Part shown: positions 14,820-24,717 of the stretch, one piece after another
Layout: every line of letters begins with the position of its first letter
Numbering within the stretch: the stretch's first letter is position 1
IMG/VR virus record: IMGVR_UViG_3300030108_002106
Location: 1-36,139 of that record
Reading direction: 5' to 3' (one strand)
Source: a virus
Length of the DNA: 36,139 nt
Made by a program: the position numbers and the translations under genes
The notes under the pieces: generated by a model
Told to the model about the DNA's origin: nothing
The model's database searches: none
Seen by the model: the letters and a program-made list of their open reading frames with translations, nothing else

Positions 14820-16775
14820 TTATCTCCTTCCATCGGGTTGTGCGTCGAGTCTAAGAGAACCATATCTCCAAGTTTCTCCAACGTCTTCATTTTCTATTTT
14901 TACACTAAGCAATCTGCCTCTTGCTCTAGTGTCTATTTTCTTTGTAGTACTTGTGACTGTAAATGGTCCCAACGGCGAAACAGTTTGAGTTTCAGAAGGG
15001 AAGTCACTTATAAACAATGAAATTTTTGAGTTACCTACAATTTGTTTATAATCAGGAATAAATCTTCGCATAGACATCATAAATTCTCCGTCATCAATAT
15101 CAAAGTCAGAGGATCTAATAAACGCAGCTATGGCGCTCGTGCCTGTGCTGTTAACTTGATCGGGTTGAGTCTTCTCGTGACAATAATAAACAGTTGCTCC
15201 GTAAGTATCAGTAATTCCAGATATAGGAAACAACGGAGTATCAGACGGATCATTGGTTCCGCTTTGACCTTTAGCTACGTAGTTAGTTGCATAAGGTTCT
15301 GTGAAAACATCTGCATCTTGATACGTTGTTCTATCTAAAGATCCAGTGTACCAACTCGCTTCACCGTAATTATAAGTAACAACTCGATCTACTTGTAGAG
15401 ATCCTGCTTTAGGATAGAACCAACTAACTTCTGTATATAAACTATTGTGTCCTGCGTAAACGATTTCACTTGCATCAAAATTTAAACCTAAGTTTCCGTC
15501 TCCTGTGGTAAATACAAAATCTTCAACTAAGCAAGGTAATTGTTTTACGGTACCGTCGTATTGAAAGAAACTACCTGATGTGCCCATCCAATAAACGGCT
15601 CCTTGTGCAAAAGCCGCAGCATGTTGCCCAAGACAACCACAGTTGGTTCCTACTTGTCTAATACTAAACGTAAAAGGTGGACCAACAAATTGTGCTACGT
15701 AGGCAGCTTGATCAGTTAATATTAAAATATAATCTTTACCTTGTACAGCAGCTACAATCTTATTACCTTTATCTAATTGAAAAGTTCCAGCTGTGTTTGT
15801 AGATGTGGGTGCATATACTGATGTAGACTCTTGATCTGAAAATCTAATAAACATAGGATCTTGAGTTGCAGTGTTACCAATAGTTGTTTCAGTCCCTAGA
15901 TGAAATAGATGTCTGTCAGTTTCTGATACGATAGTTAATCTTGAAGCTGTTGGTGCTCCTGTCATTATAGTTGCTCTGTTGGTTCGTGGATTAACGGCTC
16001 CTGCATCCCACGTAAAAGATTTACCGTTAGCAATAGTAGCTACCAAAGTTTCTCCAAAATTATCAAGAGACCAATTACCTGGTTCTAGAGTTACGTTAGA
16101 TGTTGTTCTTGCAGTTCCCCACGTAGAATCTCCCCATAAATAAGTTCCCCATCCATATCCTAATGTTTGAGCGGTAGGTCCTACCTCAACGTACGGAGTT
16201 ACGGTTACAGATCCACCAGCACTCATTCCTGTTCCGTTATTCTCTGTCGTTGTAACACCAGCAGCAGGATTAGTTAAACTAATTGTAAAAGAGTTAGTCG
16301 TAGTTGTTAAAACTTCAAAAGGGTGAGCAGTAAAATCATCTGCTGTTAAAGTTGTGTTGGCTCCCATCGACACAGAGCTTAAAACAATGTATCGACCTGG
16401 TTCTAATCCGTGACTAGTAAAATTAATTGTTACCGTGGCTGCAGCAGCAGCTGAAGTGGTAAAAGTTCCTGTGCCTGATAAAGCACTATCTAGTGGACTA
16501 ATGTCATAGAAAGCTCCACCATAATATAAAAACAAACCTTGAGACGTTCCTATGGCAGCATACCTTTCTCCAGCTAAAGAAGTAAAAGCGTGTTGAGCTC
16601 TTGCTACACCTGGGAGAGTATGTTGATCATTAGTTAATTGTTGCCATCCTCCAATCTTTTCAGGTATACCATATCTAAATCTAACAAAATCTCCATCAAT
16701 CCACTTGCCTGGAGATGCTGCGGGAGTCCCTTGTTTATCAAAGCCTGGTTGGAATCTTACTTTTTTTAATGCCAT
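14820..16775 (-). CDS. Tail stabilization protein (P22 gp10-like)
   Basis: This 651-residue, beta-rich protein starts with FQPGFDKQGTPAASPGKW, typical of tail tubular/stabilization proteins of short-tailed phages, and ends with RARGRLLSVKIENEDVGETW and a DAQPDGRR tail, the characteristic C-terminus of the family. Residues about 115-192 contain a SHGLEPGRYIVL domain insertion, and residues 208-220 a GWG-x3-WG-x3-WG element like the repeats in the fibre protein at 23140-24717. It should close the bottom of the tail and hold the DNA in the capsid. It is followed after 2 bases by a small lysine-rich gene. Confidence 0.85.
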   Translation of the reverse strand: MALKKVRFQPGFDKQGTPAASPGKWIDGDFVRFRYGIPEKIGGWQQLTNDQHTLPGVARAQHAFTSLAGERYAAIGTSQGLFLYYGGAFYDISPLDSALSGTGTFTTSAAAAATVTINFTSHGLEPGRYIVLSSVSMGANTTLTADDFTAHPFEVLTTTTNSFTISLTNPAAGVTTTENNGTGMSAGGSVTVTPYVEVGPTAQTLGYGWGTYLWGDSTWGTARTTSNVTLEPGNWSLDNFGETLVATIANGKSFTWDAGAVNPRTNRATIMTGAPTASRLTIVSETDRHLFHLGTETTIGNTATQDPMFIRFSDQESTSVYAPTSTNTAGTFQLDKGNKIVAAVQGKDYILILTDQAAYVAQFVGPPFTFSIRQVGTNCGCLGQHAAAFAQGAVYWMGTSGSFFQYDGTVKQLPCLVEDFVFTTGDGNLGLNFDASEIVYAGHNSLYTEVSWFYPKAGSLQVDRVVTYNYGEASWYTGSLDRTTYQDADVFTEPYATNYVAKGQSGTNDPSDTPLFPISGITDTYGATVYYCHEKTQPDQVNSTGTSAIAAFIRSSDFDIDDGEFMMSMRRFIPDYKQIVGNSKISLFISDFPSETQTVSPLGPFTVTSTTKKIDTRARGRLLSVKIENEDVGETWRYGSLRLDAQPDGRR

Positions 16776-16816: not shown

Positions 16817-17368
16817 TTAAATCATCCTTGGTCCATGGCAAAATAAGGTTAAAGTCTTCCTCACACCTTTCGTAACAGGAGTTACCCTATGATTTATGTG
16901 AGATTTAAAGACAATCAAGGAACCTGGAGCACATTGTTTAACAACATAAGGATCTCCCGGCCAAAGCCAAAATTCTCCTCCTTCATAACTATCAGATAAA
17001 TTAGCTATGACTGTAAGTTTACAATCATAAATTTCACTTTTAGAAGAATCATAATGCCAATCATATTTAGCTTTTGTTTTACTGTCATAGATATTTAAAA
17101 GCATAAAATCAGAATGATCAAAGGGCTTAATATGGTAACCGAAATTTTTTAAATTAATATCGTAGATACTATGCTCCATTTCGCCTACAATATCTTTTAT
17201 TTTTTTCCAACCGATAACTAAAGTTTTTGTTTTCTTCTTATCTTGACCTTCATTAGTTTTAGCAGCCTTACCTTCTTTTTCAACAAAGTCATAATTGTTC
17301 TCAATAGTCTTACATATTTGCTTTCTATGTTCGGGGCTAAAATAATCGTTTATATACCAACAATCCAT
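16817..17368 (-). CDS. 2-oxoglutarate/Fe(II) oxygenase 1 (prolyl-4-hydroxylase/PiuC-like)
   Basis: The 183-residue protein shows the double-stranded beta-helix signature: iron ligands H105 and D107 in YDWHYDSS, a YEGGEF turn (128-132), the distal ligand H160 in NHRVTPV, and R170 in TKGVRKTL for the 2-oxoglutarate carboxylate. It should couple decarboxylation of 2-oxoglutarate to hydroxylation of an unknown substrate, probably a protein. The ATG at 17368 is preferred because GGAGA lies upstream; a TTG at 17386 overlaps the previous gene. It is the last oxygenase of the cassette, 41 bases before the stabilization gene. Confidence 0.88.
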   Translation of the reverse strand: MDCWYINDYFSPEHRKQICKTIENNYDFVEKEGKAAKTNEGQDKKKTKTLVIGWKKIKDIVGEMEHSIYDINLKNFGYHIKPFDHSDFMLLNIYDSKTKAKYDWHYDSSKSEIYDCKLTVIANLSDSYEGGEFWLWPGDPYVVKQCAPGSLIVFKSHINHRVTPVTKGVRKTLTLFCHGPRMI

Positions 17369-17369
17369 A

Positions 17370-17705
17370 TTAATCTTTCTCCACAAGTATAGTCCACTCT
17401 AACTCCAAAACCAAGTCTTTTACATATACTTTTTTCTTGTTCTCTTTTTTAACATATTGATGAAGTTCTTCTATGTCAAAAATAAGCCATCGTTTATCCT
17501 CTTCAATAACCATCTTTTCAGCTTGTGAATTAAAACTTCCACTCTGAGCTGGTGTTCCATCTGGTAGTTTTATCATTTCTCTAACATCAAATCTGTAAAA
17601 AGCATTTTTTCCTTTTAATATGCCAGCAATATTCCAAGAAGCTTTTTGTTTAGGATACTCTATGGCTTGTAAATATTTTGAAAATCTATCAACTATATCA
17701 CTCAC
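17370..17705 (-). CDS. Conserved hypothetical protein in the oxygenase cassette (111 aa)
   Basis: A compact, charged protein with the core YRFDVREMIKLPDGTPAQSG, then EKMVIEEDKRWLIFDIEELH and a Lys-rich segment. No known enzyme motif was found. It starts with GTG (17705) sharing a TAGTG with the end of the nucleotidyltransferase-like gene, so it is translationally coupled to it. The constant pairing with oxygenases suggests an accessory role (substrate-binding or scaffold), but nothing in the sequence proves it. Confidence 0.65.
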   Translation of the reverse strand: MSDIVDRFSKYLQAIEYPKQKASWNIAGILKGKNAFYRFDVREMIKLPDGTPAQSGSFNSQAEKMVIEEDKRWLIFDIEELHQYVKKENKKKVYVKDLVLELEWTILVEKD

Positions 17706-18292
17706 TATAAAATCTTACGAGGTTCTTTATAAACAAAACCTTCTTTTTGATATTTAATTAAATTTTTTGTAAAAGGATAAATCTTATCTCCTTCATATAA
17801 ACCATATTTATCTTTTTTCCATTCATACATACTAACTTTTTTATTTCCTTTAGGATCAGTTGTAATAAATTTATTACTTATTTCCCAAGCTTTTATGTTA
17901 AAAGTTTTTCCATCCCACTTAGAAATATTACCACAATTAATCATAACACCTTTAAGTGTTGGTTGAAGATTTACATCAATATAAAACTTATAACTAAATG
18001 CTAGTTTTTTAATAGTGTATAAAATTTTATAAGCCATTAAAGATGGCTTGCCTATCAACACTAAGTCAACATCCCACGATACCCAATCTTCTAGAACTCC
18101 ACCACAAACATATAAATCATAATTCAGAAAACTAATTTTATTTTGTTTTTGTAAACTTTCTAGTTCTCTAACAAAAGCTTGAAATAAGGGATGACGTATT
18201 CCACCTATAGCTAACCAATTTTTACTAGAAAAAGTACCATAACACACAGATCCTTTCCAAAACTCAGTTCTATAGTGATCTTTGATATTCAT
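17705..18292 (-). CDS. Nucleotidyltransferase-fold protein (putative)
   Basis: The 195-residue protein contains the three-part signature of the DNA-polymerase-beta-type nucleotidyltransferase fold: a strand ending in Gly-Gly (YDLYVCGG, G64-G65), a DxD pair followed by hydrophobics (WDVDLVLIG, D74 and D76) and a third acidic residue on a later strand (FYIDVNLQ, D106). All three acidic residues needed for metal binding are present, so activity is plausible: transfer of a nucleotide to a protein, sugar or RNA. The spacing between GG and DxD is short (8 residues). It is embedded between oxygenase 2 (TAATG at 18292) and the 111-residue gene. Confidence 0.6.
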   Translation of the reverse strand: MNIKDHYRTEFWKGSVCYGTFSSKNWLAIGGIRHPLFQAFVRELESLQKQNKISFLNYDLYVCGGVLEDWVSWDVDLVLIGKPSLMAYKILYTIKKLAFSYKFYIDVNLQPTLKGVMINCGNISKWDGKTFNIKAWEISNKFITTDPKGNKKVSMYEWKKDKYGLYEGDKIYPFTKNLIKYQKEGFVYKEPRKIL

Positions 18293-18903
18293 TATAAATT
18301 TAATTCTGATAGACCTTCTCTGCTTCCAATATTTCCTTTTACAAAAGTATTAAAAGCTAAACTAATTCTAAGATTATTATCTTGTTTAGTTTGAACTGAG
18401 TGATTTAGATAAGAAGGGAACAATAATATATCTCCTGATTTAACAGGTATCCACCAAGTAAGAGAGTTCCAAGTATTGTATTTATTTGTTTCAAAATTAA
18501 TTTGAGAGTATTTATTTTTATGAAAAATAATTTTATCGTGAGCTTCCTCTGCTTTTACATATAGAACACCAGACACGATTGAGTTAGGATGTTCGTGAGA
18601 ATGATGATGTTCGCCTTTAACATTATAGTTCAACCATGATTGTGTAATATATGGAGTAATTTTATTATAGGTTGCAAAAATATTTTTATAATATTTATGT
18701 GATTCTTTTGTTAAATCATCTTTTAATTGCTTCAAAGGTTTTTCATTTAATACATAAGAATTAATTGTTTTAGAATTGCCTTCATCCTTTTTCAAATTAT
18801 TTTTTTGTTTATCAAAAAATAAAATTTCTTTTTTAGTAAAATTTCTGTTTAAAGAAGTTTGATACACTGCTGTGGGGAATAACGAGTGAACTATGTCTTT
18901 CAT
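18292..18903 (-). CDS. 2-oxoglutarate/Fe(II) oxygenase 2 (TIGR02466-like)
   Basis: The 203-residue protein matches the small family with an N-terminal FPTAVY segment, a His-rich metal site HHHSHEHPNS followed by SGVLYV (about 99-116), the sequence GDILLFPSYLNH with distal H168, and R179 in LRISLAFN for the cosubstrate. The first metal motif is H-x-H rather than H-x-D, as I recall for this family. The substrate is unknown. The gene is very AT-rich, follows oxygenase 3 after 2 bases without a visible Shine-Dalgarno, and probably depends on translational coupling. Confidence 0.85.
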   Translation of the reverse strand: MKDIVHSLFPTAVYQTSLNRNFTKKEILFFDKQKNNLKKDEGNSKTINSYVLNEKPLKQLKDDLTKESHKYYKNIFATYNKITPYITQSWLNYNVKGEHHHSHEHPNSIVSGVLYVKAEEAHDKIIFHKNKYSQINFETNKYNTWNSLTWWIPVKSGDILLFPSYLNHSVQTKQDNNLRISLAFNTFVKGNIGSREGLSELNL

Positions 18904-18905
18904 AC

Positions 18906-19526
18906 TTATAATAAATTTTTATATTTTTTTAATTTTATGTGTCTAGGAAAACCTATGGAAGGTCTTTGATCATATATAAGATGTTCATTTGTTCCATTAA
19001 TTTCTACGTAATGAAGAAAAATTTGTGTACAATAATTATTTTTTAATATCTCTCTGCCATGAGCTAAATCTGCTCCTTTATAAAGCAACAGATCTCCCGC
19101 TTCTAATTTAATTTCAATTTTCTTTTTATTAGAAATTAAATAAATAGGCCACATACCTCCAGATATATTTAACGTTGCTGATATTTCACAACTTGGTCTA
19201 TCTATGTGTTTTGGTAACACAGCTCCTTTGTCGTAAATTCGCAAATAAGAATAGGTTGGAAAAAGTTTTTTGTTAGTTTTCTTTTCAATCATAGGTCTTA
19301 AATTATTTAAGATAATTTCAGAACCATAATCTCCATAACAAGAATAGTGTCCTTTTGCTAAAGAGTCATGCCATACACCATACCAACTGTTTGTTTCCAA
19401 CATTTTATTTTCATAAAAGTTAGCTACTACATGTCTTTTTAAAAAAATACATTGATTAACAAATGCAGCTAATTCTTTTGATATAGCGTTTCTTACAACT
19501 AAATATTTATTTTTTTTAAAACTCAC
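18906..19526 (-). CDS. 2-oxoglutarate/Fe(II) oxygenase 3
   Basis: The 206-residue protein has H107 and D109 in LPKHIDRPSCEIS, a following strand pair, then GDLLLYKGADLAHGRE with distal H156, and an IFLHYVEI strand. These give the metal triad of the double-stranded beta-helix fold. A clear arginine at the usual cosubstrate position is not obvious (the segment reads NNYCTQIFLHY), so cosubstrate binding may differ. It resembles uncharacterised oxygenases of marine phages. It overlaps the start of the gene upstream (oxygenase 4) by 11 bases. Confidence 0.82.
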   Translation of the reverse strand: MSFKKNKYLVVRNAISKELAAFVNQCIFLKRHVVANFYENKMLETNSWYGVWHDSLAKGHYSCYGDYGSEIILNNLRPMIEKKTNKKLFPTYSYLRIYDKGAVLPKHIDRPSCEISATLNISGGMWPIYLISNKKKIEIKLEAGDLLLYKGADLAHGREILKNNYCTQIFLHYVEINGTNEHLIYDQRPSIGFPRHIKLKKYKNLL

Positions 19527-20046
19527 TTATTTCATTAACTCCTTGTTGGCAAAAAGAATAATAACCAGTTATAATACTTCTTTCTTTTTTTAAATCAGGT
19601 TGACCTTTGTGTGTATGTGTAAAATAAGCAGGGAAAATACATACTCTACCCACTTTACTTTCTATTGTTTGTTTATCTCTATAAAATTCAGTGCCACATT
19701 TGTGTGAGGTTAAATAAATTTGTACACTTAATACTCTATATGGAGTTGTTAAACTTACCTCTGAATGATAATTTTTAAAACTTTGTCCTTTTTTAAAAAG
19801 CTTGTATCTTAATGTGTCTAAAGTCCATTGTGAAGAAGTCATATTTACTTCAGGATAAATTTTAACGTACAGTTTAATTAATTTTTCAAGTTTTTCTAAA
19901 AAATTAAATTCTTGAATTACAATATCATTATAAAAATAATCTAATATCTTATTTGATTTTAAATTTTTTTTATAAGTTTTTATAAGTTTATTACATTCTT
20001 TTGAAGAAAGAACATTATCTTTTACTAATATAAAATTAGAACTCAC
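19516..20046 (-). CDS. 2-oxoglutarate/Fe(II) oxygenase 4 (HxE type)
   Basis: The 176-residue protein has YHSEVS (H94, E96) in place of H-x-D, then VLSVQIYLTSHKCGTEF, VGRVCIFPAYFTHTHKG (H144 or H146 as distal ligand) and R156 in KKERSIITGYYSF. Glutamate as the acidic metal ligand is known in the superfamily but less common. N-terminal SSKECNKLI resembles the start of prolyl-hydroxylase-like domains. Substrate unknown. It shares ATGA with oxygenase 5 upstream. Confidence 0.82.
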   Translation of the reverse strand: MSSNFILVKDNVLSSKECNKLIKTYKKNLKSNKILDYFYNDIVIQEFNFLEKLEKLIKLYVKIYPEVNMTSSQWTLDTLRYKLFKKGQSFKNYHSEVSLTTPYRVLSVQIYLTSHKCGTEFYRDKQTIESKVGRVCIFPAYFTHTHKGQPDLKKERSIITGYYSFCQQGVNEISEF

Positions 20047-20654
20047 TTGAATTGAGGCCCTGTAATCCAGCCAACTAAAGAATATCTGTGTCCTTTAGTA
20101 ACGGGTGTCACTTCATGTAAAGTATAACTAGGAAAAGCTAAAAGTTTTCCTTGCTCTTTAGGTAAACAAGTTGGATCGCCACCAGTGTGTAATTTTAAAT
20201 CGCCACCTTCGTATGTATCTGGGTCGGATAACAACAAAGACATTGATAATTTTCTAACTGGTCCTTTGTACCAAGTATCAATGTGCTTTGTATAAAAATT
20301 ATCGGGTGCTTTATAATACGTAAATTGTAGGCCTTCAATAAAACCAAATAAATCAAATTGATGAAACTCGTTGTTTAATCCTGTTACTATATCTGTCAAT
20401 CTTCTAAAAATCCAATCAGTTTCGGCACTTGGCCACATCCAATTAATCTTAGACAACCTAGCTTTTGGTTCCACTCCGTTTCGAACTGCACCATCTACCA
20501 TTGCAAATTGTTTACCTAATTTAATTATTTTTTTACACTCTTCTTTTGAAAATGCGTTGGAGTAATAAGAAAAAGACTCGATGGAATCAGGTTTAAATGG
20601 CCATGATGATGGACCATGTTTAATGCTTTGTTTCTTCTTTTCTTTCTTTTTCAT
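20043..20654 (-). CDS. 2-oxoglutarate/Fe(II) oxygenase 5 (PiuC/prolyl-4-hydroxylase-like)
   Basis: The 203-residue protein starts with a lysine-rich tail (1-12), then FSKEECKKIIKLG, the metal site KHIDTW (H124, D126), RKLSMSLLLSDPDTYEGGDL, the distal ligand H180 in FPSYTLHEVTPV and R190 in TKGHRYSLVGW. This is the clearest prolyl-4-hydroxylase/PiuC-type member of the cassette and is most similar to oxygenase 1 (shared EGG and H-x-V-TPVTKG-x-R elements). It is the first gene of the cassette; no good ribosome site is seen, and an AT-rich inverted repeat lies just upstream. Confidence 0.9.
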   Translation of the reverse strand: MKKKEKKKQSIKHGPSSWPFKPDSIESFSYYSNAFSKEECKKIIKLGKQFAMVDGAVRNGVEPKARLSKINWMWPSAETDWIFRRLTDIVTGLNNEFHQFDLFGFIEGLQFTYYKAPDNFYTKHIDTWYKGPVRKLSMSLLLSDPDTYEGGDLKLHTGGDPTCLPKEQGKLLAFPSYTLHEVTPVTKGHRYSLVGWITGPQFK

Positions 20655-20695: not shown

Positions 20696-21058
20696 TTACT
20701 CTATTTTATCCCAAACTTGATTTGCTTCATTCCACACATGTAATGTGCCATCTTCAGGATATGCAACTGGTGCTTGCCAATCACTATTATCATCTAACGT
20801 CCAAGATGGATATGGCTGTCTTGAAATAAATATGTCTTTAGCTTCATCATAAGTATCATCTACGCCAGCAAATTGTTTTCTAAAATTACTATTGTAAGAA
20901 GTTTGAACCCATTTAGTATCTTGACCATATAGTGATTTACAGAAAGCAATACCAACAGCTTCGTCTTCGTTACCACTATCGTTTTTGATAGAGTCATTGT
21001 TAACAACTATAACTGTTTTAACTTTGTTATTATCATCTAATTGAGCGAAATGTGCCAT
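20696..21058 (-). CDS. Conserved tail-associated phage protein (120 aa)
   Basis: It starts MAHFAQLDDNN with KVKTVIVVNND, contains VGIAFCKSLYGQDTKWVQTS, YNSNFRKQFAGVDDTYD and the Trp/Pro-rich PYPSWTLDDNSDWQAPV. I recognise this as a very widespread small protein of cyanophages and other marine phages, usually next to fibre genes and left as hypothetical. It probably is a virion component or fibre chaperone. A TAATG junction at 21058 couples it to the polyglycine adhesin. Confidence 0.75.
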   Translation of the reverse strand: MAHFAQLDDNNKVKTVIVVNNDSIKNDSGNEDEAVGIAFCKSLYGQDTKWVQTSYNSNFRKQFAGVDDTYDEAKDIFISRQPYPSWTLDDNSDWQAPVAYPEDGTLHVWNEANQVWDKIE

Positions 21059-22014
21059 TATGCTGTGTAACTCCCTGACCCATTAAATTGCATTATTGTA
21101 TCTGAACCTGATGTTGAAACTGTTGGAGATCCCGTTGTAACTCCTGAATAATCAGCTGTTGCAACTTTAATAGCAACCACTCCTGATCCTCCATTTCCAA
21201 TTGTGCTACCGCCTGGACCGTCAGTATATCCTTGACCGCCGCCACCGCCGCCGGTATTTGCAGTTCCATTTTGTGCTCCTGGAGGTTTTCCAGTGGATCC
21301 TCCACCGCCGCCGCCAGAGCCGCCCGAACCTGCTGAAGCTGCTGGTCCAGAACCTGCTGGGTTTCTAGAGCCGCCGCCACCGCCGCCGCCGAGAGTCGTG
21401 CCTAAAATAGCTACAGTTGCTCCTGCTCCTCCGGCACCAGAGTTACTACTAGAGTTATTTCCTACGGCACCAAATCCGCCGCCGCCTCCAGCTGTTGATT
21501 GAGCTGATACACCAGAACCTGAAGGTCCTGCTTGAATTCCACCATTGTTTCCTTCTGAAGGAGAAAAACTTCCAAGATTACCTTGTCCTGCTGCAGCATG
21601 AAATTGGTTAAAAGCGTTTCCACCACCTGATCCTCCAGGGGCTGCTGCGTACCCACCATATGGATCTGTTGGAGTTGGATATTGAGGGTTACTTGTAGAT
21701 ATGTTGGCTCCAGCCCCTCCGCCAGAAGATGAAAAACTTATGCCTGTTCCAATAATAGAACTAACAACTCCTTGATTACCACCACTAGAGTTAACTCCAC
21801 CAGCACCTACTGTGACTGTGTAAGTTTTTCCAGCAGTTAGTTCTTGAGCTGTATCACTTCGAATCCCGCCAGCCCCTCCGCCGCCGCCGATTCCGCCGCT
21901 CCCTCCGGAGCCGCCACCAGAAACAACCATGAAGTCTGCGTTATATTTTCTTGCGCCTTGTCTTTGACCAAAACCTGATGCTGATCCAGCACCTCTTGAA
22001 GCTATAATTGGCAT
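21058..22014 (-). CDS. Glycine-rich tail-tip adhesin
   Basis: The 318-residue protein has a short N-terminal segment (1-25), the FMVVSGGGSGGSGG start of the glycine-rich region, a beta segment ELTAGKTYTVTVGAGG typical of phage glycine-rich tail proteins, then many runs of four to seven Gly separated by short polar loops, and a C-terminal IMQFNGSGSYTA. Runs of Gly with variable loops resemble the polyglycine-II sandwich of T-even gp38-type adhesins, which carry receptor specificity. The Gly runs use GGC/GGT/GGA codons, creating GC-rich islands in an AT-rich genome. SD: AGGAGG before ATG 22014. Confidence 0.8.
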   Translation of the reverse strand: MPIIASRGAGSASGFGQRQGARKYNADFMVVSGGGSGGSGGIGGGGGAGGIRSDTAQELTAGKTYTVTVGAGGVNSSGGNQGVVSSIIGTGISFSSSGGGAGANISTSNPQYPTPTDPYGGYAAAPGGSGGGNAFNQFHAAAGQGNLGSFSPSEGNNGGIQAGPSGSGVSAQSTAGGGGGFGAVGNNSSSNSGAGGAGATVAILGTTLGGGGGGGSRNPAGSGPAASAGSGGSGGGGGGSTGKPPGAQNGTANTGGGGGGQGYTDGPGGSTIGNGGSGVVAIKVATADYSGVTTGSPTVSTSGSDTIMQFNGSGSYTA

Positions 22015-22034: not shown

Positions 22035-23105
22035 TTACGCGAACTGTGTTTGAGCTGCGAACGCTGTAAAAGCAGCATCGCCAGTTTTAATTACAGTGTA
22101 CGTGTAAATATCAACAGAGTTAGCGTTACCAGCTGTTGGCGCAGCACCGCCTTGCCATTCTGGAGTTACGCTTGATCCATCGATTGTAAAAGCGTTATTG
22201 TAATAAGGAGTGCCTGTATTTGTTGTTAAGAAAGCAAAAGTTACAGACTCGCCTGTATCCATAATATTATTTAAAGAGTTTGATCCATCACCTCTAACAT
22301 TAACTGTAAAGTTACCTGCTGAAGCAGATGTGTGGTAAAGAACAGCTTGTGTAATTAAATCATAGTTTACTGTTCCAGTTGTACCCGTTGCAGCGATAGT
22401 TACTTTTTCTGCTAGTTGCTGAATTTTACCAGCTCCTAAAGTTACTCTTCCAATTCCTTTTGGACTTATAGTTAAGTCGATGTTTGAATCGCCACCTGTT
22501 GCAGATACGCTTGGACTGTTACTTGTCGCTGCGTTAGTAACTGATATTTCGTTAACTGCTGAACCCGTTGTAGCAAATTTAATTTGCTCATTTCCGTTTT
22601 CATCATTAATTGATTTTGTATTATCGATGATAATATTTTGACCGTTAGTATCTAAGTCAGCTGAAAGTTGTGGCGAGAAGTCTGAAGATAATTCTGTGAA
22701 AGCTGTATCTACAATGTCAGTACCATCACCATAGACCATTTTAGTTCCTTTGTCAGCTGCAGCCCATACTACTCCAGATCCTGAAGTTGTTTTGACTGTT
22801 ACTGAGTAAGCGCCTGAAGTGGCATTGTCTACGATGTAAACTTTTTCTACTACAGGAACAACTACGTTAACGTTTGTTGTAATAGTTCCAGTTAATTTTA
22901 ATACTGCATTTTTACCATTAGAAACCGCACCATTTGAAACTGTTAATGTTGCTCCAGTCGTAGCATTAAGTGCAACAGCTTCAAAACCAGCGATTGCTTG
23001 TTCTACGATTAATAAGTTTGTATTTGTAATTTGTCCCCACGTTCCCGAGTTTTCACCGGTTGCTTGGACTGTAAGTTTCAAAAAACTTGATGTTGAATTC
23101 GCCAT
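22035..23105 (-). CDS. Tail fibre protein (356 aa)
   Basis: The N-terminus has FLKLTVQATGENSGTWGQIT, a widespread anchor motif of marine phage fibres (LxxPAxGxNxGTWG-like). It is followed by beta-rich Thr/Ser/Val/Asn sequence, an ADLDTNGQNI segment and an SPKGIGRVTLGAG segment, both common in fibre shafts. The C-terminus FAAQTQFA is a frequent end of the same class. It probably forms the fibre shaft to which the glycine-rich adhesin, encoded 20 bases downstream, attaches. Confidence 0.8.
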   Translation of the reverse strand: MANSTSSFLKLTVQATGENSGTWGQITNTNLLIVEQAIAGFEAVALNATTGATLTVSNGAVSNGKNAVLKLTGTITTNVNVVVPVVEKVYIVDNATSGAYSVTVKTTSGSGVVWAAADKGTKMVYGDGTDIVDTAFTELSSDFSPQLSADLDTNGQNIIIDNTKSINDENGNEQIKFATTGSAVNEISVTNAATSNSPSVSATGGDSNIDLTISPKGIGRVTLGAGKIQQLAEKVTIAATGTTGTVNYDLITQAVLYHTSASAGNFTVNVRGDGSNSLNNIMDTGESVTFAFLTTNTGTPYYNNAFTIDGSSVTPEWQGGAAPTAGNANSVDIYTYTVIKTGDAAFTAFAAQTQFA

Positions 23106-23139: not shown

Positions 23140-24717
23140 TTAAGCTGCGGTGTCAACCTCTCTCCACGTAGCGGTTGTGCCGGTATCAACGGTTTCCCAG
23201 ATTAAAGCATTAAGCGATCCAGTAGACATTGTCAAGTTATTTCCTGTTAAACTTACTGTCCCCGTTCCTTCTAAACTTACACTACCGAGAGTGCTTGTCA
23301 AGGTAATTCCTGAAGGAGAAGCGATAGTATTTGGTGTTCCTGGAGCAGTTCCAAGGGTCATTGTCATGCTTATTCCAGAAGGAGCTACTTGTATCGAATC
23401 AGATACTCCACCCCAGTCTAAAGCACCCCATGTAGATCTACCCCAACCAGCGTTAATTTCACTAGATATTCCTACATCTGCAACAGTAGGTGTTAAATTA
23501 AATCCTACTAAATCAGCTTTATCATTTCCATCATTATTCCATAAACCTTGACCCCATTCTTTTCTACCCCAACCAACATTAACTTCAGCATCTGTTGTTA
23601 CAGAGCCAAGAGTCATAGGTAAAGAGAAGCTTCCTGTAACTAATGTTCCAGGTATACCCCAACCTAATCTACCCCATTGTTGTCTGCCCCAACCGGTATT
23701 AACTTCGTTTGTTATAGATACTGAACCTAAAGTTGCGGATAAACTAAATGTGCCTACAGCACCTGCTTCGTTTGGAGATCCCCAAGTTTGAGCTCCCCAT
23801 TCAGTTCTGCCCCAACCGGTATTAACTTCACCTGAAGAACCTTCGTTTCCTAAACTTAAACTTAAAGGGAATCCTGTGACTTGAACATCTAATACAGTTT
23901 CATTTAATCCCCATGGTTCATTACCCCATTCAGCTCTGCCCCATCCTGTATTAACTTGAGTTCCAATAGTTACAGATCCAAGGCTTGAAGACATTTGAAT
24001 ACCAGTTGGTAAAACAGTTCCAAAAACTCCCCATGATCCTGTATTCCAAGCATCTCTACCCCATCCTGTATTTATTTCTGATCCAATAGTTACACTTCCT
24101 AGAGAAGCTGACATTCCTATGCCATTTGGAAAAGCATCAGTATTTGTAGCTGCACCCCACTGATCGGCTCCCCAAGTTCTTCTACCCCAACCAGCGTTTA
24201 CTTCAGCGTCAGTAGTAACGCTTTGTAAACTTAAACTTAATGGAAATCCTGTTACTTGAGGAGCAGCATTATCTTGATCGCCCCACTGTCCTGTACTCCA
24301 ACTTAATGATGACCATCCATCGTTAACAATATCAACCTCTCCTCCCATTCTGAGGCCGTGATAAAAACAATAATAATAAAAATCGGTTGCGCTTGCAGGA
24401 GTAATTTCTACGTATCGAGTTGTTGCTGAATTAAAAGATCCGCTAGCGTAAGAAGAATAAGGGACCGTTGATCCATCTAAATTATAAACAACCCCTGTTT
24501 CTATTCTTCCTGAGTTAGGATTAGAGGAATCAGTAGTAAATAATAATGGATGGCCATCGTTTGTGGCATCGTCTTGATTAAATCTTAAAGTAGCACCTTG
24601 TGTCCACGTAATATCTAAATCACGAACACCGTCTAAATAATAAACGCTACCTGTGCCCGTGCCTGACGGATATAGAGTTCCGGAAGCGACCGTGACTGTG
24701 TAAGTTTTATCCGCCAT
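23140..24717 (-). CDS. Tail fibre-like protein with cupredoxin-like N-terminus and seven Trp-rich repeats (525 aa)
   Basis: Residues about 26-132 look like a single beta-sandwich domain with the spacing of a type 1 copper site: H56 in NDGHPLLF and C117, H120, M124 in YYYCFYHGLRMGG (Cys-x2-His-x3-Met). Residues 135-435 contain a degenerate and then seven clear GWGR repeats (at 176, 218, 258, 301, 342, 382, 424) with a 40-43 residue period. The C-terminal 90 residues are Thr/Ser-rich beta sequence with more TLGSV elements. The gene lies between adaptor-type genes and fibre genes, so it is almost certainly a virion protein of the tail. Confidence 0.75.
   Translation of the reverse strand: MADKTYTVTVASGTLYPSGTGTGSVYYLDGVRDLDITWTQGATLRFNQDDATNDGHPLLFTTDSSNPNSGRIETGVVYNLDGSTVPYSSYASGSFNSATTRYVEITPASATDFYYYCFYHGLRMGGEVDIVNDGWSSLSWSTGQWGDQDNAAPQVTGFPLSLSLQSVTTDAEVNAGWGRRTWGADQWGAATNTDAFPNGIGMSASLGSVTIGSEINTGWGRDAWNTGSWGVFGTVLPTGIQMSSSLGSVTIGTQVNTGWGRAEWGNEPWGLNETVLDVQVTGFPLSLSLGNEGSSGEVNTGWGRTEWGAQTWGSPNEAGAVGTFSLSATLGSVSITNEVNTGWGRQQWGRLGWGIPGTLVTGSFSLPMTLGSVTTDAEVNVGWGRKEWGQGLWNNDGNDKADLVGFNLTPTVADVGISSEINAGWGRSTWGALDWGGVSDSIQVAPSGISMTMTLGTAPGTPNTIASPSGITLTSTLGSVSLEGTGTVSLTGNNLTMSTGSLNALIWETVDTGTTATWREVDTAA
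23413..24192 (-). repeat. Seven tandem protein-coding repeats (about 120-130 bp each)
   Basis: Each unit encodes a GWGR-x2-W(G)-x3-W(G) element followed by a variable linker, a small beta segment such as SLSLGSV or ATLGSV, and a hydrophilic E-(V/I)-N-(T/A) before the next unit. Units differ at many codons, so the array is old and not a recent slippage product. Confidence 0.8.

Follow-up and report, generated by a model that had tools for sequence, protein, structure and literature searches.

Exchange of an Oxygenase Gene Cassette Together with Adhesin-Like Genes in Pelagiphage Relatives, and the Identity of Its "Ferrochelatase"

Introduction

What a phage may do with five different oxygenases encoded among its tail genes is the question raised by a stretch of viral DNA of 36,139 nucleotides (IMG/VR record IMGVR_UViG_3300030108_002106, positions 1 to 36,139), which is referred to here, at its full length, as the window. 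On the minus strand, between positions 16817 and 20654, seven tightly packed genes encode five proteins of oxygenase fold (ox1 to ox5) and two non-oxygenase proteins (g195 and g111). This cassette occupies a fixed slot in the host-recognition region. Its oxygenase repertoire is shuffled among related phages and is co-inherited, independently of the phage backbone, with a glycine-rich (Gly-rich) protein and a small phrog_7759 protein, called hyp in the following. The locus is tentatively read as a recombining cassette of Fe(II)/2-oxoglutarate (2OG)-type oxygenases that may modify the tail adhesin or other tail proteins, a reading to which we give slightly less than an even chance.

The Cassette and Its Genomic Setting

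By its matches at the DNA and protein level the window falls among the pelagiphages of the HTVC027P/HTVC023P type, and it is related to the viruses of SAR11. All five oxygenase open reading frames (ORFs) are intact, and the order of transcription is ox1, ox4, ox3, ox2, g195, g111 and ox5, with adjacent genes either overlapping by 1–17 bp or separated by a 2-bp gap. A scan for promoters and terminators gave no signal above that of shuffled sequences. Upstream of the cassette lie a fibre-like gene, the Gly-rich protein and hyp; downstream are found a virion structural gene (stab), two small genes and two glycosyltransferase-like genes, the first of which is a clear Glycos_transf_1. The genes that concern the argument, all of them on the minus strand, are the following:

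22035..23105, minus strand: conserved fibre-like protein, upstream edge of the variable block (weak tail-fibre PHROG matches)
21058..22014, minus strand: Gly-rich adhesin-like protein (PF21722 Gly_rich_2, 1.7e-06)
20696..21058, minus strand: hyp, small phrog_7759 protein (phrog_7759, 6.2e-40)
20043..20654, minus strand: ox1, 2OG/Fe(II) oxygenase of PKHD/P4H type, 203 aa (PF13640, phrog_61, NF003974)
19516..20046, minus strand: ox4, 2OG/Fe(II) oxygenase resembling prolyl 4-hydroxylases (P4Hs), HxE...H with R at H+10, 176 aa (phrog_61, 3itq, alignment)
18906..19526, minus strand: ox3, phrog_2954 member, HxD...H, 206 aa (alignment, predicted structure, profile controls)
18292..18903, minus strand: ox2, 2OG-FeII_Oxy_5/TIGR02466 family, HxH...H...R, 203 aa (PF13759, TIGR02466, 3bvc/2rg4, alignment)
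17705..18292, minus strand: g195, protein with a Pol-beta-type nucleotidyltransferase-like motif, 195 aa (motif)
17370..17705, minus strand: g111, small conserved cassette gene, 111 aa (found in most stab-anchored cassettes)
16817..17386, minus strand: ox5, 2OG/Fe(II) oxygenase with a TTG start, 189 aa (PF13640, phrog_61)
14820..16775, minus strand: stab, virion structural protein, downstream edge of the variable block (phrog_3287, 6.2e-83)

The original prediction, made from the sequence alone, had reported five unlike oxygenases in this interval and had placed them inside a tail module. Both statements agree with the present results, as the five proteins are mutually 20–29% identical in pairwise comparison and are bracketed by tail-fibre/Gly-rich genes on one side and by stab on the other. 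The metal motifs that it listed were also recovered: HxD in ox1, ox3 and ox5, a family-conserved HxH in ox2, and HxE in ox4, in which E96 is nearly invariant. The five had been described, in addition, as adjacent or near-adjacent and as coupled; they do belong to one tightly packed run, but they are not contiguous, because g195 and g111 intervene.

Shuffling and Co-Inheritance of the Oxygenase Repertoire

Relatives of the window were collected with stab, and not the oxygenases, as the anchor, loci from other scans were added, and all ORFs of these loci were annotated with iterated profiles, for which reversed sequences gave no matches. Oxygenase-like genes occur in every one of the 53 loci whose fibre-to-stab interval is complete, with between 1 and 10 per locus (median 4; five in the window). 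These counts are approximate, since the set includes near-duplicate loci and a few of the weak profile matches may be wrong. In the largest locus (L017), six of the eight genes tested exceed Pfam cut-offs. The cultured myophage HTVC008M carries four annotated 2OG oxygenases and a "ferrochelatase" in one run, eight non-orthologous 2OG oxygenases have been described in HTVC023P-type phages, where the clusters were read as metabolic genes (PMC9599517, Wittmers 2022), and PMC3909814 lists Fe(II) oxygenases for the hypervariable islands of marine phages. The number five, which had been thought striking, is therefore ordinary for these phages, and the cluster of the window belongs to a kind that was published in 2022.

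The contents of the slot turn over in closely related phages. In the closest relatives, stab is 87–94% identical and the first glycosyltransferase, where complete, 91–94% similar, and the fibre-like protein has a similarity of about 0.8 in most of the close relatives whose cassettes differ. Their oxygenases are at most 50% identical to those of the window, their Gly-rich protein has no detectable similarity, and their hyp reaches 15–29% of the self score. Conservation of the five genes as a block, proposed as a check, was ruled out by this comparison: relatives with flanking genes of about 90% similarity carry a different repertoire. The reverse situation is given by one locus (L165) that shares the cassette, with four oxygenases 76–90%, g195 82%, Gly-rich 87% and hyp 88% identical and with ox4 missing, on a diverged backbone in which stab has a normalised score of 0.28 (versus self) and g116 is unmatched. 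The divergence of its fibre gene was discarded as evidence, since the contig ends within this gene and leaves 77 aa of it.

The same pattern was obtained over 25 stab-anchored loci, in which similarity of the oxygenase repertoire correlates with that of the Gly-rich protein (rho 0.38, Mantel p 0.001) and of hyp (rho 0.23, p 0.012), and correlates neither with that of stab (rho -0.05, p 0.70) nor with that of the fibre (rho 0.05, p 0.32), the fibre comparisons being blunted by contig ends. These correlations are unchanged on leaving out ox3. Orientation also follows the type of adhesin: Gly-rich and hyp are present in 38 of 38 loci in which all oxygenases are in the sense orientation, and the loci that lack the two genes have antisense or mixed oxygenases in 10 of 10 cases (Fisher p 1.5e-7, ignoring the relatedness of the loci). 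Moreover, homologues of Gly-rich and hyp accompany runs of oxygenases in the myophages HTVC008M and P-RSM4, whose backbones are unrelated. No earlier statement of a co-inheritance of oxygenase sets with Gly-rich and hyp was found in the open-access papers searched; it may exist elsewhere.

As a separate observation, the loci L208–L218, filed as genomes of Maricaulis, Flavobacteriaceae, Dehalococcoidia or Pelagibacter, mostly carry the fibre/Gly-rich/hyp/oxygenase/stab module; they resemble phage contigs that were binned with bacteria or that came from infected single cells.

The phrog_2954 "Ferrochelatase" Is Predicted to Be an Oxygenase-Fold Enzyme

The protein ox3 falls in phrog_2954 (E 1.9e-43), a family labelled "ferrochelatase" in PHROG. 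This name is used in PMC9599517 and PMC11561400, one of which cites phrog2954 explicitly; 156 phage records match ox3 and, among the matches listed, most are named ferrochelatase, S-PM2 included. A Pfam match was not obtained for ox3. The HxD...H residues H107, D109 and H156 are invariant in 38 diverse members of the family, and they are still invariant on adding cyanophage, HTVC008M and bacterial relatives. The AlphaFold model (predicted local distance difference test, pLDDT, 94.1) has its best PDB matches in a Pseudomonas P4H, PHD2 and PiuC, one of the best-matching Pseudomonas P4H entries being a complex with EF-Tu. It matches 523 PDB chains at E<=1e-3, AlkB is among the fold matches, and no chelatase fold occurs among the 50 best. 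A viral protein of S-SM1 named ferrochelatase matches the same model. The profile of true ferrochelatases (PF00762, HemH) matched none of the 38 family members and none of seven phage records carrying the family, as against 8 of 14 control genomes, while the phrog_2954 profile had no match in its 14 control genomes. With these controls, the oxygenase fold and the invariant HxD...H motif, a ferrochelatase identity of ox3 was ruled out; judged by its conserved residues and predicted structure, ox3 is an oxygenase-fold enzyme with an atypical cosubstrate site. An earlier statement that phrog_2954 is not a ferrochelatase was not found in the open-access papers searched, and may exist elsewhere.

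The cosubstrate site deserves some comment. The canonical arginine, about 10 residues after the second His, is missing from ox3, as the original reading had supposed, and it is missing across the family, its position being variable. R96, R158 and Q168 are invariant and are candidate cosubstrate residues in its place. Given the missing arginine, use of 2OG by ox3 is put no higher than likely. A profile–profile link between ox3 and ox4 was not found (probability 2.7%), so that motif and fold alone place ox3 in the superfamily.

The genomic context of the family is also informative. Among internal ox3 genes, 97 of 103 abut another oxygenase, and complete loci never hold more than one ox3 each; the published rule of a ferrochelatase next to an oxygenase would therefore describe one more oxygenase in the cluster. 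In bacteria, relatives of ox3 adjoin a PF13640 oxygenase, as in Legionella and another proteobacterium, or lie between genes of non-ribosomal peptide and polyketide synthetases (NRPS/PKS), as in the cyanobacterium Brasilonema (L220:7959-8630, NRPS/PKS genes on either side). The latter setting is one where a hydroxylase is expected, and the Brasilonema protein is an apparent natural-product tailoring enzyme; it offers a lead to the natural reaction of the "ferrochelatase" family. Two further arrangements may be mentioned: in Legionella and the other proteobacterium the ox3-like gene is followed directly by the PF13640 oxygenase gene (L225:7974-9400, L226:7902-9349), and in the cyanophage S-SCSM2R a 427-aa protein contains an ox3-like region (L196:8980-10263).

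The Other Four Oxygenases

Both ox1 (PF13640 E 2.8e-15, 57.5 bits; phrog_61 1.5e-35) and ox5 (PF13640 E 7.2e-12, 46.6 bits; phrog_61 1.8e-21) exceed the PF13640 cut-off of 27 bits and combine HID/HYD (HxD...H) with TPVTKGxR; ox1 also matches NF003974 (8.6e-21), under the equivalog cut-off of that model. The assignment of ox2 comes from PF13759 (E 2.4e-22, 79.7 bits versus a cut-off of 27) and TIGR02466 (69.8 bits versus 62.5), with 3bvc/2rg4 as relatives of solved structure. Its site H103xH105...H168...R179 is invariant or nearly so in an alignment of 20 relatives, and HxH is found family-wide. For ox4, the PF13640 score of 24.2 bits lies under the cut-off of 27, phrog_61 matches at 2.8e-19, and the structural check proposed earlier gave agreement: the ox4 family profile matches prolyl 4-hydroxylases among solved structures (3itq, 1.7e-12), just as the ox3 model matches prolyl hydroxylases. 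In the ox4 family H94 and H146 are invariant, and at H+10 the window has R where most relatives have K. A basic residue about 10 positions after the distal His is present in ox1, ox2, ox4 and ox5, and these four proteins are predicted, through homology to families and structures of that type, to adopt the double-stranded beta-helix fold, which in ox3 is given by the predicted structure. The original prediction of five metalloenzymes with this fold, belonging to several types, is thereby supported.

Other PHROG labels deserve attention too. The families phrog_3531 ("ferrochelatase"), phrog_2297 ("DNA endonuclease") and phrog_274 ("DNA endonuclease V") match oxygenases of the window over much of their length, and their names may be wrong in the same way as that of phrog_2954.

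Neighbouring Genes

The two non-oxygenase genes of the cassette gave no convincing match in Pfam, PHROG or PDB. In g195, for which only three relatives were found (L165, L191 and L192), the pattern GG-x8-DVD...D106, with G64, G65, D74, D76 and D106 invariant in the four members, would be typical of nucleotidyltransferases of the Pol-beta type. The gene g111 is found in most stab-anchored cassettes, whichever oxygenases are present, and an alignment of 31 sequences has D77, E80 and W104 invariant.

The Gly-rich protein (31% Gly; PF21722 28.6 bits versus a cut-off of 24.3) is possibly a receptor-binding component and a candidate substrate of the oxygenases; it contains no collagen-like repeats. 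Relatives of hyp are found in phages of SAR11, OM43, Roseobacter and cyanobacteria, and lie beside fibre genes in many marine phages. In HTVC025P, Bellamy and Melnitz, homologues of hyp are located amid fibre genes with no annotated oxygenase nearby; the oxygenases therefore look like an addition to the fibre module. Further upstream, a tail protein at 23140-24717 (minus strand) contains about seven copies of a repeat of the GWGRxxWGxxxWG type.

Possible Roles of the Oxygenases

Modification of a tail adhesin is the leading candidate mechanism because the repertoire travels with Gly-rich and hyp, independently of the backbone. The oxygenases would be produced together with the tail proteins and would oxidise side chains, for the most part by hydroxylation, in the adhesin inherited with them or in other tail proteins. 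Exchange of the adhesin would bring along its own modifying enzymes, and the modification could adjust the receptor binding of the fibre, its stability or its resistance. A precedent is the prolyl 4-hydroxylase of the chlorella virus PBCV-1, with hydroxyproline in viral proteins (cited in PMC9301287). The multi-site modification system suggested in the original prediction is plausible in this sense, and the co-transfer with the adhesin favours a link to tail proteins. A more ambitious version, in which post-translational modification is combinatorial, each adhesin being chemically diversified by its own hydroxylase set and exchanged together with it to change receptor specificity, and in which ox3 is a core member with a new mode of cosubstrate binding, appears unlikely.

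Several observations weigh against adhesin modification. Gly-rich and hyp physically adjoin the cassette, and their co-transfer may be plain linkage. About a quarter of the relatives have some or all oxygenases antisense to the tail genes, so a shared tail transcript is not required. The number of oxygenases does not track the length of the Gly-rich protein or its Pro, Lys, Asn or Asp content (ten tests). Small-molecule or glycan substrates are possible, because the bacterial relatives include the apparent tailoring enzyme mentioned above. Finally, no recognisable chaperone fold was found for hyp; its AlphaFold2 model (pLDDT 96.4) has no significant PDB fold match, and the proposal of a tail-fibre chaperone fold was dropped for lack of one.

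Among the other explanations, modification of the host surface (lipopolysaccharide, capsule or an outer-membrane protein) during infection, which might serve to prevent superinfection or to keep phages from adsorbing to debris, is a less probable but serious competitor. The adhesin would have to match the set, and co-transfer with it is equally expected. The two glycosyltransferase-like genes downstream, the nucleotidyltransferase-like g195 within the cassette and the weak similarity of ox2 to oxygenases of the "sporadic carbohydrate cluster" (TIGR04324, 6.1e-5) point in that direction, and an interpretation of this sort was given to the glycosyltransferases that pelagimyophages carry in their host-recognition cluster (PMC7029224). 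However, the glycosyltransferases are near-identical in close relatives with other oxygenases and do not travel with the cassette, and the solved-structure relatives detected for the ox4 family are prolyl or lysyl hydroxylases of proteins. The oxygenases could also act on host translation proteins or metabolites, as classical auxiliary metabolic genes (AMGs) or in the manner of the prolyl hydroxylases of EF-Tu or ribosomal proteins. The Pseudomonas P4H with its EF-Tu complex among the best fold matches of ox3, and the publication of these oxygenases as AMGs (PMC9599517, PMC11561400), fit this proposal, which we regard as rather improbable since it leaves unexplained the fixed place beside the adhesin, the co-inheritance and the rapid turnover in near-identical phages.

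An explanation by location, equally improbable in our judgement, holds that cassette and adhesin co-vary in a shared recombination hotspot and that the oxygenases have assorted unrelated jobs. The adjacency, the mixed types and antisense copies and the small size of the correlations speak for it; yet stab, equally adjacent on the other side, is uncorrelated, and the combination of Gly-rich, hyp and oxygenases recurs on unrelated backbones. Modification of DNA or nucleotides by AlkB- or TET-like enzymes is very improbable: ox3 has a weak profile match to Naegleria Tet (E 0.02) and AlkB among its fold matches, but the Pfam scan reported neither TET/JBP nor AlkB families for any oxygenase of the window, and the genes lie in the tail region and not in the DNA module. 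An iron/haem auxiliary pair, in which a ferrochelatase partners iron-dependent oxygenases, has the PHROG and GenBank labels and the two published accounts on its side; as regards fold and family, the PF00762 and phrog_2954 controls and the oxygenase fold and metal motif of ox3 refute it, and it can be practically dismissed.

Comparison with Known Systems

The clusters of HTVC023P-type phages (PMC9599517) belong to the same phage group and contain several non-orthologous 2OG oxygenases, with a "ferrochelatase" always adjoining one of them. They were read there as metabolic genes with a haem partner, whereas here the partner is predicted to be an oxygenase and the cassette co-varies with the adhesin. 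In HTVC008M (gp68–gp72), a row of five genes of the oxygenase family, including one of phrog_2954, lies beside homologues of Gly-rich and hyp as in the window; the differences are the myovirus backbone, the antisense orientation of the cluster relative to the structural genes and the other members that compose it. Metaviromic islands and host-recognition clusters (PMC3909814, PMC7029224) are likewise hypervariable around tail fibres, and Fe(II) oxygenases were binned there under host recognition, with emphasis on lectins and glycosyltransferases and without a mechanism or an analysis of the cassette. The prolyl 4-hydroxylases (3itq, the Pseudomonas putida P4H, PHD2 and the chlorella virus P4H) have the fold and metal site common to ox1, ox3, ox4 and ox5; their activity is the hydroxylation of protein side chains, whereas the enzymes of the window have low identity to them and ox3 does not have the usual cosubstrate arginine. 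The polyglycine adhesin gp38 of phage S16 (PMC6851490) resembles the Gly-rich protein in its Gly-rich runs between variable segments and its place in a host-recognition module, and this is a resemblance only.

Concluding Remarks

Oxygenase clusters are among the commonest unexplained AMGs of very abundant ocean phages. With phrog_2954 reassigned, the haem/iron interpretation used in no fewer than two papers (PMC9599517, PMC11561400) falls away, and the gene takes another name in many phage records. The shared inheritance of cassette and adhesin replaces a metabolic puzzle by a specific idea that can be tested in cultured phages, namely that these enzymes may modify tail proteins or a matched surface.

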